DNA from: Bacteroidetes bacterium HGW-Bacteroidetes-3 | GTDB lineage: Bacteria > Bacteroidota > Bacteroidia > Flavobacteriales > Flavobacteriaceae | NCBI GenBank assembly: GCA_002842505.1 | Contig: PHDE01000002.1 | Coordinates: 1 to 64,000, forward strand | Reading direction: 5' to 3' | Length of the DNA stretch: 64,000 nucleotides | Translations under genes and position numbers: made by a program | Notes under the pieces: generated by a model | The model's database searches: none | Told to the model about the DNA's origin: nothing | What the model saw: only the letters and a program-made list of their open reading frames with translations | In this document: positions 3 to 49,861 of the stretch, piece by piece | Numbering within the stretch: position 1 is the first letter of the stretch | Layout: each line of letters begins with the position of its first letter

Positions 3-275
3 GATCAATTCAATCTAAATTTGCAATTAACCGCAAAGAACCAAGGAAAATACGCAAGGAGCCTTTTTGTTTGATATTTGATTACGCTATTTTCAAAATT
101 CTAAAATCAAAAATCATAAATCGTAATTCATTTTGCGTTAGCGATTGAAGCGGAAATCCTGGCATTGCGATTTAGGATGCTTAGTAAAATATTGCTGCGC
201 TCTGAACGCAATGACAGATTGGAACGGAAAGCGCGACCTGAAAGGAAACGCCAACCAAAAAGGTCGGCAGGCCAA
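3..275 (+). repeat. Interspersed repeat family 2, copy 1
   Basis: Shares atcaattcaatc..aaatttgcaattaaccgcaaagaa, tttgattacgctattttcaaaat, aaatcaaaaatcataaatcgtaattcattttgcgttagcgattg and a terminal cgccaacc with the copy at 27473-27750. Confidence 0.8.
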
Positions 276-4681: not shown

Positions 4682-4900
4682 TTGGTTGGCGTTCCCCCGC
4701 CGAAAAGGCGGGGGCGGGCTTTCCGTTACAAACTTTTTTCGCCAAAAAGCTCAAAAAGGTTTTCCGCTGCAATCCCTAACGCGTATTGATTTACGATCTC
4801 TGATTTTTGATTTACGATTTTAAAATAGCGTAATAAAATGTCAACCAAAACAAAATTGCTCGTTGCGGTTAAATGCAAGTTTATATTGAATTGATTTTTT
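4682..4900 (-). repeat. Interspersed repeat family 2, copy 2 (reverse orientation)
   Basis: Reverse complement matches family 2: ggttggcgttccc, ctaacgcgtattgatttacgat, aaaatagcgtaa, ttgcggttaaatgcaagtttatattgaattgat. Confidence 0.75.
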
Positions 4901-5057: not shown

Positions 5058-6419
5058 ATGAAGTACGCTAAAAATATTTTGGAAACCATTGGAAACACGC
5101 CTTTGGTTAAATTAAATAAAATAGTTAAAGAAATTGACGCTTTGGTGTTGGCTAAAGTGGAAACATTTAATCCCGGAAATTCGGTAAAGGACAGGATGGC
5201 CGTTAAAATGATTGAAGATGCCGAAAAACAAGGAAAATTAAAGCCGGGAGGAACCATTATTGAAGGCACTTCCGGAAATACGGGAATGGGATTGGCTTTG
5301 GTGGCAATTATTAAAGGCTACAAACTTATATGCGTGATTAGCGATAAACAGTCCAAAGAAAAAATGGATATTTTAAGGGCGGTTGGCGCTGTGGTAGTTG
5401 TTTGTCCAACGAATGTTGGGCCCGATGATCCGCGTTCCTATTATTCTGTTTCAAAACGTTTGGCTAAAGAAACCCCAAATTCTTGGTATGTAAACCAATA
5501 CGACAATCCTTCAAATTCCTTGGCACATTATGAACAAACCGGACCCGAAATTTGGGAACAAACAGCGGGAAAAATCACTCATTTTGTTTCAGGGGTTGGC
5601 ACCGGTGGAACTATTTCAGGCGTTGGAAAATATTTAAAGGAAAAAAATCCTGCCATAAAAATATGGGGAATAGATACTTATGGCTCTGTTTTTAAAAAGT
5701 TCCACGAAACCGGAATTTTCGATGAAAATGAAATTTACCCTTATATCACCGAGGGCATTGGAGAAGATATTCTTCCTAAAAATGTGGATTTCAGCATTAT
5801 CGATGGATTTACCAAAGTTACCGATAAGGATGCGGCGGTATATACCCGTAAAATAGCGAAAGAAGAAGGTATTTTTGTTGGAAATTCAGCGGGTTCCGCA
5901 GTAAAAGGCTTATTGCAATTAAAAGAACATTTCAAAAAAGATGATGTGGTGGTGGTGCTTTTTCATGACCACGGCAGTCGATATGTGGCAAAAATATTTA
6001 ATGACGACTGGATGCGGGAACGCGGATTTTTGGACGATGAAAAAAAAGTTGCCATAGATTTAATCAGAGATCGATTAGATTCACCAATGATTACGGTAAA
6101 AACGGAAGAATTGGTGTCCCATGCCATTGATAGAATGCGCCATAACGACATTTCCCAGATACCGGTTACAGATGTAGACGGATTTGTGGGCTCTGTGGAC
6201 GAAAGTGATTTATTTCGCTTGTATTTTGACGATAAGGATATCGCCAACAAACCAATTAAAGAAGTGATGAGGGCACCTTTTCCAATCGTGAAAGGCGATA
6301 CGTCCATAGATCAAATTTCGAAGCTCATCAACAGAGATAATGGTGCTGTTTTGGTAGATTTGGGTGGCGATAAATTTCATATTATCACCAAACATGATGT
6401 AATAAGGGCAATTCAGTAA
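5058..6419 (+). CDS. PLP-dependent cystathionine beta-synthase-like enzyme with C-terminal CBS pair
   Basis: NPGNSVKDRMA, EGTSGNTGMGLA, GTGGTISGVGKYLKE; CBS domains in the C-terminal third; ATG at 5058 preferred over the upstream TTG. Confidence 0.92.
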   Translation: MKYAKNILETIGNTPLVKLNKIVKEIDALVLAKVETFNPGNSVKDRMAVKMIEDAEKQGKLKPGGTIIEGTSGNTGMGLALVAIIKGYKLICVISDKQSKEKMDILRAVGAVVVVCPTNVGPDDPRSYYSVSKRLAKETPNSWYVNQYDNPSNSLAHYEQTGPEIWEQTAGKITHFVSGVGTGGTISGVGKYLKEKNPAIKIWGIDTYGSVFKKFHETGIFDENEIYPYITEGIGEDILPKNVDFSIIDGFTKVTDKDAAVYTRKIAKEEGIFVGNSAGSAVKGLLQLKEHFKKDDVVVVLFHDHGSRYVAKIFNDDWMRERGFLDDEKKVAIDLIRDRLDSPMITVKTEELVSHAIDRMRHNDISQIPVTDVDGFVGSVDESDLFRLYFDDKDIANKPIKEVMRAPFPIVKGDTSIDQISKLINRDNGAVLVDLGGDKFHIITKHDVIRAIQ

Positions 6420-6489: not shown

Positions 6490-6586
6490 ATGAAACGAGC
6501 ATAACAAATTTTGATACACACAGAAATGATTAATGGCGAACAGTCCCGAATTTTCGGGATTACCAATAAAAAATAAAATTTAACAG
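6490..6586 (+). repeat. ATGAAA-bounded element copy A (abuts start codon of 6587 CDS)
   Basis: ATGAAACGAGCATAACAAATTTTGATACAC...CAGTCCCGAATTTTCGGGATTACCAATAAAAAATAAAATTTAACAG then ATGAAA. Confidence 0.9.
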
Positions 6587-7528
6587 ATGAAAAAAATATT
6601 AGTTACCGGAGGTGCCGGATTTATTGGATCACATTTATGTGAGCGTTTATTGAATGAAGGCAACGAAGTCATTTGCCTTGACAATTATTTTTCAAGCAAC
6701 AAAAGCAATATTATTGGATTGACCTCAAATCCGTTTTTTGAGATGGTACGGCACGACATTACGCAACCATATTTTGCGGAAGTAGATGAAATTTACAATT
6801 TAGCTTGTCCGGCAAGCCCTATTTACTACCAGCACGATCCTATAAAAACGATACAAACTTCAGTAATGGGAGCCATCAATATGTTGGGTTTGGCAAAGCG
6901 GCTGAATGCGAAAATTTTGCAAGCAAGCACCAGTGAAGTCTATGGCGACCCTATTGTGCATCCCCAAAAAGAAGATTATTGGGGCAATGTAAACCCAATC
7001 GGTTTAAGGTCGTGTTATGATGAAGGCAAAAGATGCGCGGAAACCTTGTTTATGGATTATCACCATCAAAATAAAGTCGCCATTAAAATTATACGAATTT
7101 TCAATACCTACGGACCAAATATGAATGTAAACGACGGCAGGGTTGTTTCCAATTTTATAGTGCAGGCATTAAGAGGGGAAAATATTACCATTTATGGCGA
7201 CGGCTTGCAAACACGTTCTTTTCAATATGTGGATGATTTGGTGGAAGGAATGATTAGAATGATGAATGCCGATCCTAAATTTTTAGGTCCGGTGAATTTG
7301 GGAAATCCTAACGAGTTTACCATGTTACAGCTTGCCAAAACAATTATTGATTTAACAGGGTCATCTTCTAAAATTATTTTTATGCCTTTACCAAAAGACG
7401 ATCCAAAACAAAGACAGCCCAATATTGAACTTGCCAAAGAAAAATTAAATGGCTGGGAACCTAAAATTCAATTGGAAGAAGGACTTAAGAAGACGATTCT
7501 TTATTTTGATAAAATTTTAAATGATTGA
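6587..7528 (+). CDS. UDP-glucuronic acid decarboxylase / NAD-dependent epimerase
   Basis: [19 protein letters not shown], Yx3K-type [21 protein letters not shown]. Confidence 0.93.
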
Positions 7529-17458: not shown

Positions 17459-17580
17459 TTGGGCGTTTCCGCCGAAAAGGCGGTCGGGTTTTCCGTTCCA
17501 AACTTTTTTCGCTAAAAAAGCTCAAAAAGGTTTTCACTGCAACCCCTAACGCGAATTGAATTAATAATTGATTTGGTTTT
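17459..17580 (-). repeat. Interspersed repeat family 2, copy 3 (truncated, reverse orientation)
   Basis: gggcgtttccgccgaaaaggcgg, ttttccgttccaaacttttttcgctaaaaaagctcaaaaaggttttcactgcaacccctaacgcgaattg. Confidence 0.75.
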
Positions 17581-20927: not shown

Positions 20928-21935
20928 CTACTTATTGTTATTAAAATATACTTCCAGTTCATTTAAATAAACTAGTTTTATATTTTCATCCAATAATGAA
21001 TATTGGAAAGAATTTTTGGCCAATTGGTAAAGATCAGCCTTAGAAAGATTTAAAGCTTTCTGTATTTCCATATAATTTTTATTCACCTGTCCGCCAAAAT
21101 AAGCGGGATCATCGGAATTTACCGTAACCTTTAAACCTAAATCCATCATTTTTTTCAAGGGATGGTTTTTTAAATCGTCCACCACGCGAAGCGCGGTATT
21201 TGAAAGCGGACAAACTGTCAACGCAATATCGCGTTTGATAATTTCCTTTACCAAGTCTTCATCTTGCAATGAATTGTTTCCATGGTCAATACGTTTAATG
21301 CCTAATAAATCTATGGCTTCCCAAACATATTCCGCAGCACCTTCTTCACCTGCGTGCGCCAAAGGAACATAGCCTTCTTTTACAGAAGCTTCAAATACAT
21401 TTTTAAATTTTGAAGGCGGATTTCCTTTTTCCGAAGAATCCAATCCAACAGCTTTAATTTTATCTTTAAACGGAAGCGACTGATTCAATGTTTTAAAAGC
21501 ATCTTCTTCACTTAAATGGCGCAAATAACTCATTATCAATAAGGAAGAAACTCCCAATTTTATTTTTGCGTCGTCGCAGGCTTTTGAAATACCGTTAATT
21601 ACCGTTTCAAAGGCAATGCCCCGGTCGGTATGCGTTTGAGGATCGAACATAATTTCGGTATGACGTACATTTTGGTCGGCGCATTTTTGCAGATAGCTGT
21701 AGGTTAAATCATAAAAATCCTGTTCGTTCACCAAAACGCCGGCGCCTTGATAATAAATATTTAAAAAATCCTGCAAACAATCAAATTTATAAGCTTTTTC
21801 AATTTCTTCAACAGAATTATAAGGTATGTCAATTTTGTTTCTTTGGGCTATTTTAAACATCAACTCTGGTTCAAAAGAACCTTCAATGTGTAAATGCAAT
21901 TCAGCCTTGGGCAATTTTTCTATAAATGTTTTCAT
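20928..21935 (-). CDS. add: Adenosine deaminase
   Basis: PKAELHLHIEGSFEPELMF, LAHAGEEG, IDHGNNSL, VTVNSDDPAYF. Confidence 0.95.
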   Translation of the reverse strand: MKTFIEKLPKAELHLHIEGSFEPELMFKIAQRNKIDIPYNSVEEIEKAYKFDCLQDFLNIYYQGAGVLVNEQDFYDLTYSYLQKCADQNVRHTEIMFDPQTHTDRGIAFETVINGISKACDDAKIKLGVSSLLIMSYLRHLSEEDAFKTLNQSLPFKDKIKAVGLDSSEKGNPPSKFKNVFEASVKEGYVPLAHAGEEGAAEYVWEAIDLLGIKRIDHGNNSLQDEDLVKEIIKRDIALTVCPLSNTALRVVDDLKNHPLKKMMDLGLKVTVNSDDPAYFGGQVNKNYMEIQKALNLSKADLYQLAKNSFQYSLLDENIKLVYLNELEVYFNNNK

Positions 21936-22066
21936 CTGTTTATATTTTATTTTTTATTGGTACAGCTGCTGCCTGCCTTCCGGCAGATAAACCTGCCTGC
22001 CGATAGGCAGATAAATTCGCTATTAATTATTCCTTCGTGTATCAAAATTTGTTATGCTCGTTTCAT
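21936..22066 (-). repeat. ATGAAA-bounded element copy B (abuts start codon of add)
   Basis: Reverse complement begins ATGAAACGAGCATAACAAATTTTGATACACGAAGGAATAATTAATAGCGAA and ends AATAAAATATAAACAG; CTGCCGG hairpin core. Confidence 0.9.
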
Positions 22067-29721: not shown

Positions 29722-29827
29722 ATGAAACGAGCCTAACAAATTTTGATACATGGGAATGATTAATAGCGAACCTACCTGCCGGAAGGCAGGCAGCAGCTGT
29801 TACCGCTAAAAAATAAAATTTAAACAG
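29722..29827 (+). repeat. ATGAAA-bounded element copy C1 (tandem with C2)
   Basis: ATGAAACGAGCCTAACAAATTTTGATAC ... AAATAAAATTTAAACAG, then ATGAAACGAGCC of C2. Confidence 0.92.
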
Positions 29828-29941
29828 ATGAAACGAGCCTAACAAATTTTGATACACAAGGGAATGATTAATAGCGAATTTATCTGCCGGAAGGCAGGCA
29901 GCAGCTGTACCAATAAAAAATAAAAAATAAAATATAAACAG
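29828..29941 (+). repeat. ATGAAA-bounded element copy C2 (abuts start codon of YbbR-like gene)
   Basis: ATGAAACGAGCCTAACAAATTTTGATACACAAGGGAATGATTAATAGCGAA ... ATATAAACAG then ATGAAA. Confidence 0.92.
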
Positions 29942-30910
29942 ATGAAAACAAAAACAGCGTCTGCCATCAGATCACTAAAAAATAATAGAAAGATCAAAAT
30001 TTTTTTATTTTTTTTGGTTTTGTCGTCTTTAATTTGGATGCTGATTGAATTGTCTAAAACCTATGTTACAACGGTTGCTTTTAACGTAGAATACACAAAT
30101 TTATCGAAAGGCAAGCTGGTGCAAAAAAAACCAGTTTCAACATTGGAACTGACCATAAAGGGCCAAGGATTCACTTTGTTGAAATATAAAGCCAAGAAAC
30201 ATAAAATACTCTTAAACCTAAATAATATTTCTAAATTAAATTCAGATACCTATATATTGCCAAATAAACAAATTACCCAATTAAATTCCCAATTTACCAA
30301 TGGAATAGAAGTTGTTGCAGTGTTAAAAGACACCATATTTATTGAATTGGGCCACGCAATTTCAAAAAGAGTACCGGTAATTCCTAATCTTGAAATTCAC
30401 TATAAAGCTGGGTATAATTTGGTGGAGAAATTGATAATTTCGCCTGATACGGTTCTTGTTACAGGTGCTAAAAAATTTATTGATTCAATTACGAGACTGG
30501 AAACCAGTCTGTTAAAATTGGATAATGTCTATGAGAATATTGAAATGGTGCTAGATTTAAAATCGCCTTTTAAAAAGAACCAAATAATTATTTCAACCAA
30601 CAAAGTTAAAATTTTCGGGAAAGTCGATAAATTTACAGAAGGCACTTTCAAAATTCCGGCAACCATTATCAATGTTCCTGAAGGTGTTAAAGTAATTACT
30701 TTTCCCAAAGAAATTGAAGTGATTTATCAGGCCGGACTTTCAAATTTCAGTAAAATCACCAAAAATGACCTTTCGGTTGTTTTCGATTACAAGCAGTATG
30801 AAAAAGATTCTTTGATTACCTATTTAACGCCGGTAATACTTCAAAAAAGTGATTATATATATTCATTAAAAATAAATCCTCCACAATTGGAATTTTTAAT
30901 TCAAAAATGA
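29942..30910 (+). CDS. YbbR-like domain-containing protein
   Basis: N-terminal TM, repetitive YbbR-type beta domains, position between yajC and coaE. Confidence 0.85.
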   Translation: MKTKTASAIRSLKNNRKIKIFLFFLVLSSLIWMLIELSKTYVTTVAFNVEYTNLSKGKLVQKKPVSTLELTIKGQGFTLLKYKAKKHKILLNLNNISKLNSDTYILPNKQITQLNSQFTNGIEVVAVLKDTIFIELGHAISKRVPVIPNLEIHYKAGYNLVEKLIISPDTVLVTGAKKFIDSITRLETSLLKLDNVYENIEMVLDLKSPFKKNQIIISTNKVKIFGKVDKFTEGTFKIPATIINVPEGVKVITFPKEIEVIYQAGLSNFSKITKNDLSVVFDYKQYEKDSLITYLTPVILQKSDYIYSLKINPPQLEFLIQK

Positions 30911-31052
30911 AACGAGCATTACCAATTTTGACACATGAAGGAATGATTAATGGCGAACCTACCTGCCGGCAGGCAGGTTTATCTACCGGTAGGCAGGTTT
31001 ACCTACCGACAGGCAGGCAGCATCTGTACCAATAAAAAATAAATAATAACAG
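30907..31052 (+). repeat. ATGAAA-bounded element copy D (abuts start codon of coaE)
   Basis: ATGAAACGAGCATTACCAATTTTGACACATGAAGGAATGATTAATGGCGAA, three CTGCC/TACCGG hairpin units, AATAATAACAG then ATGAAA. Confidence 0.9.
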
Positions 31053-35669: not shown

Positions 35670-36223
35670 TCTTGTTTTAAAAATGCTTTTGAAATTGTTA
35701 GATAGATAAGATTTAAGACAATAATAAAAAATGTAATTATTGCGAAAATCCATTTTAATGTGGTAAAAGTAGCGGTAATATTGCAAATATTTTCCAATTT
35801 TTCAGGATATTTTAGGAGCATTGCCACAATTCCTAAATTTTCTAAAATATCAAACCAACTAATTAAAAGCGGAACAAAACTTAGGTAAATTAAATTTTTA
35901 AGCCGATTAATTTTAAGCAGAATTAAGATCATAAATGCATAAGTAAAACCATAAATAACGGCATAAGGAAAATCAATAAATATTTCGGATAATTTATAGG
36001 TATTTCTGCCTTCTTCGCCTAAATTTTCAAAAAATGTATAAGCAAACTCTGGTGAATAGGAAAATTTCAGGTCTAAAATAGATTTTTCCACAACTGATTT
36101 ATCCGATAATAATTTGGAAGATTTATAAAATAAAATAAGATTGAACAACACAATTAGAATGACACCAACAAAGCAGTTTCTTTTGGTTGCGTATTTTTCT
36201 AAAATGATAAAAAAGGACTTCAC
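35666..36223 (-). CDS. Hypothetical multi-TM membrane protein
   Basis: Four predicted hydrophobic segments; between hydrolase and GT2. Confidence 0.75.
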   Translation of the reverse strand: MKSFFIILEKYATKRNCFVGVILIVLFNLILFYKSSKLLSDKSVVEKSILDLKFSYSPEFAYTFFENLGEEGRNTYKLSEIFIDFPYAVIYGFTYAFMILILLKINRLKNLIYLSFVPLLISWFDILENLGIVAMLLKYPEKLENICNITATFTTLKWIFAIITFFIIVLNLIYLTISKAFLKQD

Positions 36224-37485
36224 TAATTGGTTTTTGTAAAGGTTTTGCTAACTATTTTCCAGCCATCTTTTGATTTTAAAGCTGTTAAATAATCAATATA
36301 TGATTTGTCTTTATATTTAAATTCTGTCTTAAAAACAGCAATATTATTGGTAATGTCACCCTCTAAAATTTTGGTTTCAACTTCTTGGCTGCCATCAGTT
36401 TTTACGGCATTTAAGTAATTTTCAAGAGAAATTGTCACTATTTCGTCGTTTGAAATTGTTTGGAGGATTGCATTTTCAGAAAAAGCGCTTTGTAATTTTT
36501 GCAATTCGGCATTTCTTCTTCCTTCAAAATAATTTACGATTGTTTTTTCTGCAATTTCATAGTCATTTTCCTTTGTCAAAAAATCCCTTAGCACTTTATT
36601 GTATGTTTCTGAAGCATTTATATAGGGAAAATGGCCTTCATTGTGAAAAGTGAAAACTTCGGCATTGGCATACAATTCCTTAATTTCTTTTTGCAATTTT
36701 GGTTGAATAAGCGGATCATTATCGGATTCTATGATTAACTTCGGAATGCGTTTTGTGTTATAACTATCAGAAAATGCGGTAAATTTATCAATAACAATAT
36801 AATACCTATTTATAAACTGTTCTTTGCTAAACGGTAAACTAACCAAAAAAGCCTTCAACAAAGGTGAATTTTTTGCGGCGGGAACAATTTCTTCATTTAA
36901 TTTTTTTTCACCCAGTTTTGAGATGATTATTTCAGGTAAATAGGGAATTACTTTACCCTTAGTTTCATTTTCTTTGGCAATTAAATTATTTGGAGGAAAG
37001 GTGTTTCCAAAAACAGCTTTTTCAATTCTGGAAGGAATTGTGTTCACCAAATATTGCGCAATATAACCGCCCATTGAAGTGCCTACAGCATAAAATTTGT
37101 CGACTTTTTCTGCTTCCAAAATTTTAAAAATTCCTTCTGAAGCTTTTTCAAGGGAATTGATGCTTGCCGGAAGCGTGTAGCTAATTACTTTATAATCTTT
37201 TTCAAAGGCAATAATTTGTTGCCACCATAAATCATAAGATCCGCCCATTCCGTGAATAAAAAAAATGGTTTTATTCCCATTTCCGCCAGCATAATAATTC
37301 CAACTAACGCCGTCAACAACAATTTCTTTAGTTGCTCTCGATTTAAATTCTTTAAGGTTTTGGGCCGGTTTATCATTGTTGACATACAACTTAAAAAAAT
37401 CGGATTTGGATGCCGGAATAAAATAAAGCACCAACACTATTAAAAATAAAATCAGGGCACTTATTTTAAAATATTTTTTTTTCAT
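36223..37485 (-). CDS. Alpha/beta hydrolase with C-terminal NTF2/SnoaL-like (lumazine-binding-like) domain
   Basis: IFFIHGMGGSYDLW, AVGTSMGGYIAQYLV, NEGHFPYINA; C-terminal VNYFEGRRNAELQKLQSAF...GWKIVSKTF. Confidence 0.85.
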   Translation of the reverse strand: MKKKYFKISALILFLIVLVLYFIPASKSDFFKLYVNNDKPAQNLKEFKSRATKEIVVDGVSWNYYAGGNGNKTIFFIHGMGGSYDLWWQQIIAFEKDYKVISYTLPASINSLEKASEGIFKILEAEKVDKFYAVGTSMGGYIAQYLVNTIPSRIEKAVFGNTFPPNNLIAKENETKGKVIPYLPEIIISKLGEKKLNEEIVPAAKNSPLLKAFLVSLPFSKEQFINRYYIVIDKFTAFSDSYNTKRIPKLIIESDNDPLIQPKLQKEIKELYANAEVFTFHNEGHFPYINASETYNKVLRDFLTKENDYEIAEKTIVNYFEGRRNAELQKLQSAFSENAILQTISNDEIVTISLENYLNAVKTDGSQEVETKILEGDITNNIAVFKTEFKYKDKSYIDYLTALKSKDGWKIVSKTFTKTN

Positions 37486-37583
37486 CTGTTTAAATTTTAT
37501 TTTTGAACGGTAATCCCGAAAATTCGGGACTGTTCGCTATTAATCATTCCCTTGTGTATCAAAATTTGTTATGTTCGTTTCAT
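37486..37583 (-). repeat. ATGAAA-bounded element copy E (abuts start codon of the hydrolase)
   Basis: Reverse complement ATGAAACGAACATAACAAATTTTGATACACAAGGGAATGATTAATAGCGAACAGTCCCGAATTTTCGGGATTACC..AAATTTAAACAG. Confidence 0.92.
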
Positions 37584-48717: not shown

Positions 48718-49281
48718 ATGGATTTTAAAGTTGGAGACAAAATTGCTGTTATTGATGATGTTATAAGGGGAAAAGTTATTGGCGTTCATCCGAATAAAAT
48801 TATAGTTGAAGACAAGGACGGATTTTCTTATGAATACGAGCCGAAAGAATTGGTCATTATCAGAGAAAGCCAAAAAGAGCTCTCAAAATTCAGTGATATT
48901 GACAATGATTATCTATCCGAAAAAATTAATGAAACTTCTTCGAAGAAAAATGCGCCAAAATTTAAAACCAACTTAAAGCCAGATAAGTTGCCGCCCATGG
49001 AAGTTGATTTACACATCAATCAGTTAACGGCTTCAACAAAAGGAATGGACAATTATGATATGCTTACGCTTCAATTGGAAACCGCCAAACATAAATTGGA
49101 ATTTGCCATTAAAAACAGGATTCCGAAGATTGTGTTTATTCATGGAAAAGGTGCCGGAGTCCTAAAAATAGAATTGGAATATTTGTTTAAAAAATACAAT
49201 GTATATTGGAATGATGCCTCCTTTCAAAAATATGGCTTGGGCGCCACAGAAGTCAGCATCTATCAAAATCCCAAAAATTAG
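48718..49281 (+). CDS. Smr-domain protein (MutS2-like C-terminal domain, stand-alone)
   Basis: MEVDLHINQL..NRIPKIVFIHGKGAGVLKIELEYLFKKY. Confidence 0.88.
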   Translation: MDFKVGDKIAVIDDVIRGKVIGVHPNKIIVEDKDGFSYEYEPKELVIIRESQKELSKFSDIDNDYLSEKINETSSKKNAPKFKTNLKPDKLPPMEVDLHINQLTASTKGMDNYDMLTLQLETAKHKLEFAIKNRIPKIVFIHGKGAGVLKIELEYLFKKYNVYWNDASFQKYGLGATEVSIYQNPKN

Positions 49282-49763
49282 TTTTTGACAGAAAATATTC
49301 CAAAATCAAAATTTTCAAAGAAAATTCGATCTTTGCCGTCATTAAACGATAATTTTGAAATGGTAATTTCGTGTTTATAGCCGGTTACTACACTATTGGC
49401 CAAAACTTCCGAAGTTATAATATTTACAGTTCCGCCATCGGCTACAAGTTCTTTTATAATTTTAGGCTCCAAAGGCGGAATCGCTTGGCAAAAATAAGTT
49501 GCTCCAATTCCCTTGTCAAAAATACGATAGGTTCCGGTAACAGTAGCTGAAAAAGGAAGAGACTGTGTTTTTTCCACAGTTCCAATGGCTATTTTTGGAA
49601 GTGTTAAAACCAAAACTTCGGTACTGTTAGTGCTTGTAATATATAAAACAAATTCCCCGCAACTATTCACTTTTTCGTTAAATATAAAGGAAGGAACACT
49701 AAAATCGCCATCGCTGCAAGCATTTAAGGTTAACGCTAAAAAGAGTATCAAAAGTTTTTTCAT
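49278..49763 (-). CDS. Hypothetical lipoprotein
   Basis: LFLALTLNACSDG lipobox. Confidence 0.75.
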   Translation of the reverse strand: MKKLLILFLALTLNACSDGDFSVPSFIFNEKVNSCGEFVLYITSTNSTEVLVLTLPKIAIGTVEKTQSLPFSATVTGTYRIFDKGIGATYFCQAIPPLEPKIIKELVADGGTVNIITSEVLANSVVTGYKHEITISKLSFNDGKDRIFFENFDFGIFSVKN

Positions 49764-49861
49764 CTGTTTAAATTTTATTTTTTGGCGGTAATCCCGAAAA
49801 TTCGGGACTGTTCGCCATTAATCATTCCTTCGTGTATCAAAATTTGTTATGCTCGTTTCAT
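49764..49861 (-). repeat. ATGAAA-bounded element copy F (abuts start codon of the lipoprotein)
   Basis: Reverse complement ATGAAACGAGCATAACAAATTTTGATACACGAAGGAATGATTAATGGCGAACAGTCCCGAATTTTCGGGATTACC..AAATTTAAACAG. Confidence 0.92.

Follow-up and report, generated by a model that had tools for sequence, protein, structure and literature searches.

How do unrelated genes in one bacterial genome come to share a leader that ends exactly at the start codon? This question is raised by a window of 64,000 nucleotides, the whole stretch of DNA analysed here, from Bacteroidetes bacterium HGW-Bacteroidetes-3 (contig PHDE01000002.1). An earlier note on this window had described a family of short elements bounded by ATGAAA and suggested that they insert at, or duplicate, this hexamer and deliver a new translation-start context. 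We have compared these loci with related genomes, with the remainder of the genome and with other genomes of the same family and class.

Element copies in the window and empty sites in congeners

All seven copies of the earlier note could be recovered at exactly the positions given there (Table 1). Each of them starts with ATGAAACGARC, the 5' motif being exact in six of the seven, and directly abuts an ATGAAA at the other end (7/7), with junctions reading exactly ...ACAG/ATGAAA (a slash marks a junction). The 3' junction motif, with up to three mismatches allowed, was present five times in the window, as against 0.03 times expected from shuffling. One correction concerns the copies at 6490 (TTTAACAG) and 30907 (AATAACAG), whose tails are shorter than previously given.

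Table 1. Positions of the element copies, and of the paired segments of copy E, in the window
Feature	Position	Strand	Length (bp)	Context or basis
Copy A	6490..6586	+	97	before UXS-type NAD epimerase gene 6587-7528; palindrome core TCCCGAATTTTCGGGA
Copy B	21936..22066	-	131	before adenosine deaminase (add) gene 20928-21935
Copy C	29722..29827	+	106	outer unit of tandem pair before YbbR-like gene
Copy D	29828..29941	+	114	inner unit; abuts ATGAAA start of YbbR-like gene 29942-30910
Copy E	30907..31052	+	146	between ybbR and coaE; ybbR stop TGA (30908-30910) inside the element's 5' ATGAAA
Copy E internal box CATCTGT	31021..31027	+		sequence; box/3'-end covariation across relatives
ACAGATG, copy E 3' end and coaE start codon	31049..31055	+		complementary to the box; sequence, covariation
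Copy F	37486..37583	-	98	before alpha/beta hydrolase gene 36223-37485
Copy G	49764..49861	-	98	before lipoprotein-like gene 49278-49763

The window shares synteny with two congeners, G048 and G272, at ~67-79% identity, and diverged element copies occur in both of them. For five of the six target genes, an ortholog in a sister species had a single ATGAAA without the element (coaE and the hydrolase gene in G048; ybbR, the lipoprotein gene and add in G272), whereas the epimerase ortholog was not located. The add ortholog in G048 begins with ATGCAA and also lacks the element. Flanks match closely in the hydrolase comparison (upstream near-identical in G048) and at ybbR/coaE, and the remaining comparisons are based on the orthology of the genes and the position of their starts. 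The ybbR/coaE boundary is ...TTCAAAA/ATGAAA-CGAGC...ACAG-ATGAAA/ATAATTGG in the window and ...ATACAAAA/ATGAAA/ATTGTAGG in G048, where the ybbR stop TGA lies within the ATGAAA of coaE. In the window, this stop is still within the 5' ATGAAA and coaE begins at the 3' ATGAAA. Thus, insertion split the ATGA stop/start overlap and left an ATGAAA on either side.

The empty sites show insertion and not ancestry, and the outcome in which the sequence is ancestral to each gene's leader did not occur. Leaders that are ancestral, alike by chance and devoid of mobility would fit a constant position at start codons only, but they are refuted by the empty orthologous sites, and the tandem arrays and within-genome amplification described below also speak against them; we consider this explanation hardly credible. 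The proposal that the element inserts at ATGAAA, is flanked by this motif at either end and gives the gene a new start context is therefore supported by empty sites and junctions, and we are highly confident that the element is mobile and targets ATGAAA.

Copy number, target motif and start codons

A motif search of the complete 3.55-Mb draft assembly (270 contigs) yielded ~150 copies: the 5' motif AACAAATTTTGATAC gave 151 matches with at most one mismatch (three for the reversed-pattern control), and the 3' junction AAACAGATGAAA gave 141 (none for the control). Many contigs terminate within a copy. Own-genome statistics refer to 1.13 Mb of stretches, mostly picked for holding copies, in which 117 complete units could be parsed, 27 of them running into another unit. 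With nested palindromes excluded, the element has a length of ~80-100 bp, or roughly 90 bases. Similarity among copies reached 95-100% within a genome as against 78% between genomes, and the nearest neighbour came from the same genome in 36 of 72 cases (4.6 expected). One copy (L048, from 16382 on the + strand to the contig end) has its core replaced by longer repeats (GCTCGTCTGCGACGAGTACC) and is possibly a nested insertion.

The preference for ATGAAA extended to the genome, in which 84 of 90 gene-side ends were exactly ATGAAA; copies indifferent to this motif, the outcome contrary to the earlier note, did not appear. Judging by base composition around own-genome copies, ATGAA(A) and A-richness are the only conserved features of the target. 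That the abutting ATGAAA is the start codon of a gene was true of most copies, whereas the rest abut a non-start ATGAAA and a few lie inside apparent coding sequence. An ORF of at least 60 aa follows 56 of the 76 testable copies in the own genome (~74%) and 97 of 104 in other genomes (93%). On gene calls that are simple ORF picks, the non-coding ATGAAA of the own genome comprised 219 starts and 210 others, as compared with 46 and 8 among element targets, and seven further targets were in predicted coding sequence. One copy (L065, ~5062-5220, + strand) appears to interrupt, in sense, a coding sequence reading ETLKRAVIRSLEIIGEAT, which may be HepT/DUF86-like.

The enrichment at starts exceeds pure motif targeting unless selection removes the other copies. 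We read the bias as motif targeting plus selection, an intrinsic start preference being a possible alternative source, and the target is supported as the DNA motif ATGAA(A) and not the start codon as such. A start preference together with sense orientation would also be produced if the element RNA recognised AUGAAA in mRNA near starts and a reverse transcriptase copied it into DNA. The enrichment beyond other non-coding ATGAAA and the sense orientation of L065, the clearest intragenic insertion, would agree with such a route, but intragenic cases are too few, the same bias can be obtained by selection, and neither a reverse transcriptase or ribozyme core nor an Rfam match was seen; we regard it as very improbable. 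The observation that the element always points into the gene was correct, but it is not an independent property, because the target itself is asymmetric. Insertion at ATGAAA stands, whereas its duplication may not be the rule: at ATGAAT targets the 5' copy was still ATGAAA (4/4), which suggests that the 5' hexamer is borne by the element. Two copies with matched odd pairs (one TTGAAA/TTGAAA and one CTGAAA/CTGAAA) do look like target duplications.

Distribution of the family and a hairpin across the junction

A sequence-only model detected the element in 111 of the 400 family genomes, which represent 80 of 238 genera; copy counts per genome are floors because only ~10 candidates were scored in each. 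In the class sample, 25 of 395 genomes carried it, including eleven further families (as labelled in the database), some on a single weak match. The only named carrier was a Lutibacter MAG with one copy (the contig scan was run largely at gap 30-42 and the actual gap is ~27). The layout was constant: ATGAAA(C)GAGC(C)ATG - variable - ATGATTAWTRGCGA - CATNTG - A-rich - CAN'/ATGAAA. Searches of phage, plasmid and viral-contig sequences gave no element match. Downstream genes were unrelated: among 166 proteins, orthologs recurred across genera in only four cases, which by visual inspection of the N-termini are ferrochelatase-, coaD-, bcp- and purN-like genes. Within a genus, the same site before a dihydroorotase-like gene was retained in three g14 genomes. 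We also considered a small protein, as MKRALQILTHKGMINGEQ... is in frame in some copies, and rejected it as a conserved function: the reading frame is not preserved, with a stop at codon 5 in the majority of own-genome copies and at codon 3 or 6 in the majority of relatives. In G048, some copies (L144 and L145) contain an intact small ORF (MKRARQILTHKGMINGEQHLLPLKNKN) that is in frame and stops shortly before the gene, and their palindrome inserts preserve its frame.

Among 80 sequences, the strongest covarying column pair consisted of the variable base of the internal box and the base before the ATG. The corresponding helix, CATNTG : CAN'ATG, joins the internal box to the element 3' end and the ATG of the gene. 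In a 106-sequence alignment, its central pair was G-C in 76 cases, C-G in 19 and A-T in 6, with 3 of 105 unpaired; covariation of the box/3'-end pair was 0.142 versus 0.044 for shuffled data (0/500), and 96.7% of the cells of the 6-bp helix could pair, versus 2-58% in slid registers. This hairpin spans the element/gene junction and covers the start codon. RNAalifold on 16 sequences revealed no conserved structure, and no conserved subterminal hairpin of 20-25 nt emerged from RNAalifold or single-strand DNA folds. A helix between the 5' CATG and the internal box was considered and dropped, as these positions did not covary.

The variable hairpin core of the earlier note needs to be qualified: palindromes are present, but they are mostly secondary, interrupting or replacing the conserved short box. 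They comprise 20-bp CCTGCCGGCAGG units and TCCCGAATTTTCGGGA, both located mostly within element copies in the own genome (44 of 66 TCCCGAATTTTCGGGA matches were inside parsed copies, both strands counted). The box was kept in 46 plain copies and in most of the 24 copies with CCTGCCGGCAGG inserts, and it was lost in 47 copies with TCCCGAATTTTCGGGA (TCCCGA palindrome); thus, pairing may not be essential. On average, the AUG was predicted to be unpaired with a probability of 0.22 in copies with the box and 0.46 in the TCCCGA class. Identical copies were found only among those that keep the box and are free of palindromes, which also had the closest nearest neighbours in the own genome.

An AUG-containing hairpin under covarying constraint raises the question of host-serving translational control, in which the hairpin would sequester the start codon until a factor or condition opens it, the element having been amplified once and then kept for regulation. 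The higher proportion at ORF starts elsewhere (93%) than in the recently amplified own genome (74%), by which start copies seem to be the ones retained, and the same-site retention within a genus would be in line with such a role. However, the downstream genes have no functional theme and almost no recurrence across genera, the box has been lost in many own-genome copies, and regulation would explain why copies are kept, though neither their precise insertion nor the tandem arrays. We therefore consider it unlikely as the overall explanation. It is conceivable, though rather doubtful in our opinion, that one hairpin serves both insertion, in which the box would pair across the junction with the target ATG, and start-codon masking in mRNA, and that this class-wide start-codon-homing family has a mode of target recognition not yet described.

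Candidate transposase and comparison with known systems

We give about an even chance to the reading that this is a non-autonomous mobile element that homes to ATGAAA and whose movement is probably brought about in trans by a single-strand transposase of the Y1 (IS200/IS605-like) kind. Insertion takes place immediately 5' of ATGAA(A), and the element itself opens with ATGAAA; afterwards, the upstream sequence still meets ATGAAA and the gene still begins with it. Start codons thus survive insertion because the element carries the start motif, and each copy already in place offers a new target, which accounts for the tandem arrays. Transposition would proceed as single-stranded DNA and would depend on a Y1 HUH transposase (IS200/IS605 or REP type) supplied in trans. 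TTTCAT, as read on the bottom strand, would be the flanking cleavage site and would also end the element, and the internal ATG boxes could pair with both sites, by analogy with the guide sequences that set cleavage in IS200/IS605 Y1 HUH elements (PMC6006769). The host gene would receive a new A-rich initiation region, and its AUG could be masked by the hairpin, with a possible effect on translation.

A Y1_Tnp match was present in 66 of 111 genomes with the element and in 93 of 289 without it (OR 3.1, p 8e-7, a statistic that ignores phylogeny and shared ancestry). For DDE_Tnp_1, the association was lower (OR 1.6, p 0.08) and was absent within Y1 strata. The comparison drew on a control of 371 genomes (apparently G000-G370). 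On the other hand, 45 of the 111 carriers had no Y1_Tnp match, including finished genomes with several copies, no element lay within ~1.5 kb of the 17 Y1 genes examined, and neither a long autonomous version nor a linked Y1 gene was found. Because of these carriers, and because no examined Y1 gene had a copy nearby, movement by a Y1 transposase is a tentative proposal to which we give somewhat less than an even chance. Four Y1 transposase genes (L031-L034, on G000 contigs C214, C54, C71 and C205) each lie amid different palindromic repeats (for example, CCCACGGTTTAAACCGTGGG and GGACAGGTCGCGACCTGTCC), which are unlike the element.

Another host or element recombinase, such as a tyrosine or serine recombinase with an ATGAAA crossover core, would account for the identical ATGAAA on both sides, the matched TTGAAA and CTGAAA pairs, and the many carriers in which Y1 is absent. 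However, a one-sided target of six bases is short for tyrosine and serine recombinases, the 5' side stays ATGAAA at ATGAAT targets, and the statistical link is specific to Y1. Such an enzyme appears improbable to us.

Usual mobile elements break their targets, whereas the present element persists in gene starts because it brings the start motif itself. Unrelated genes receive an identical new initiation region, which amounts to a natural replicated test of the effect of a portable 5' leader on translation, in a bacterial group mostly without Shine-Dalgarno sites (PMC3155529). There are also consequences for gene-start annotation and assembly in carrier genomes, and a defined question is posed, that is, which enzyme recognises ATGAAA.

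No description of the element was found in the open full-text literature; subscription papers and ISfinder were outside the search, and we therefore regard the family as undescribed only provisionally. Rfam gave no element match at the gathering score, only weak chance matches. A resemblance to attC/integron sites (GCCTAAC at the 5' end) was dropped because the matching 3' half is missing. Non-autonomous IS200/IS605 elements (PMC6006769) are similar in being short, without terminal inverted repeats and with a one-sided, fixed short target that sets the orientation, and in having internal boxes complementary to the junctions. In contrast to them, the present element has neither classical subterminal hairpins nor a linked transposase, its target is the start-codon hexamer, and its complementarity crosses the junction into the element end. 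The pairing of the box with the element end and ATG covaries, which alone does not show a guide function. REP sequences, which together with the TAACTGA repeats (below) come nearest among reported phenomena and whose movement is ascribed to a Y1 protein (RAYT) acting in trans, likewise form many short extragenic copies, but they are palindromes of 20-40 bp with a GTAG or CGTC tag and are not bound to start codons (PMC3733652, PMC8266576), whereas the element is ~90 bp, start-codon-bound and without a linked RAYT; no conserved GTAG/CGTC tag or palindrome was found in the element alignments, and no element copy lay near the 17 Y1 genes. MITEs are also small, non-autonomous and of high copy number, but the element shows no general target-site duplication and its ends (CGAGC... 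and ...AAACAS) do not form inverted repeats. Flavo-1 RNA (RF01705), a structured RNA, scored above the gathering score in the same window (130-242, +; 4708-4788, -; 17478-17560, -), but it differs in sequence and places and is unrelated to the element. Finally, the TAACTGA direct repeats of Beggiatoaceae and some Bacteroidetes, heptamer arrays of unknown origin upstream of start codons (PMC4679880), are also found in many copies just upstream of the starts of unrelated genes, whereas the element is a structured 90-bp unit with exact ATGAAA junctions.
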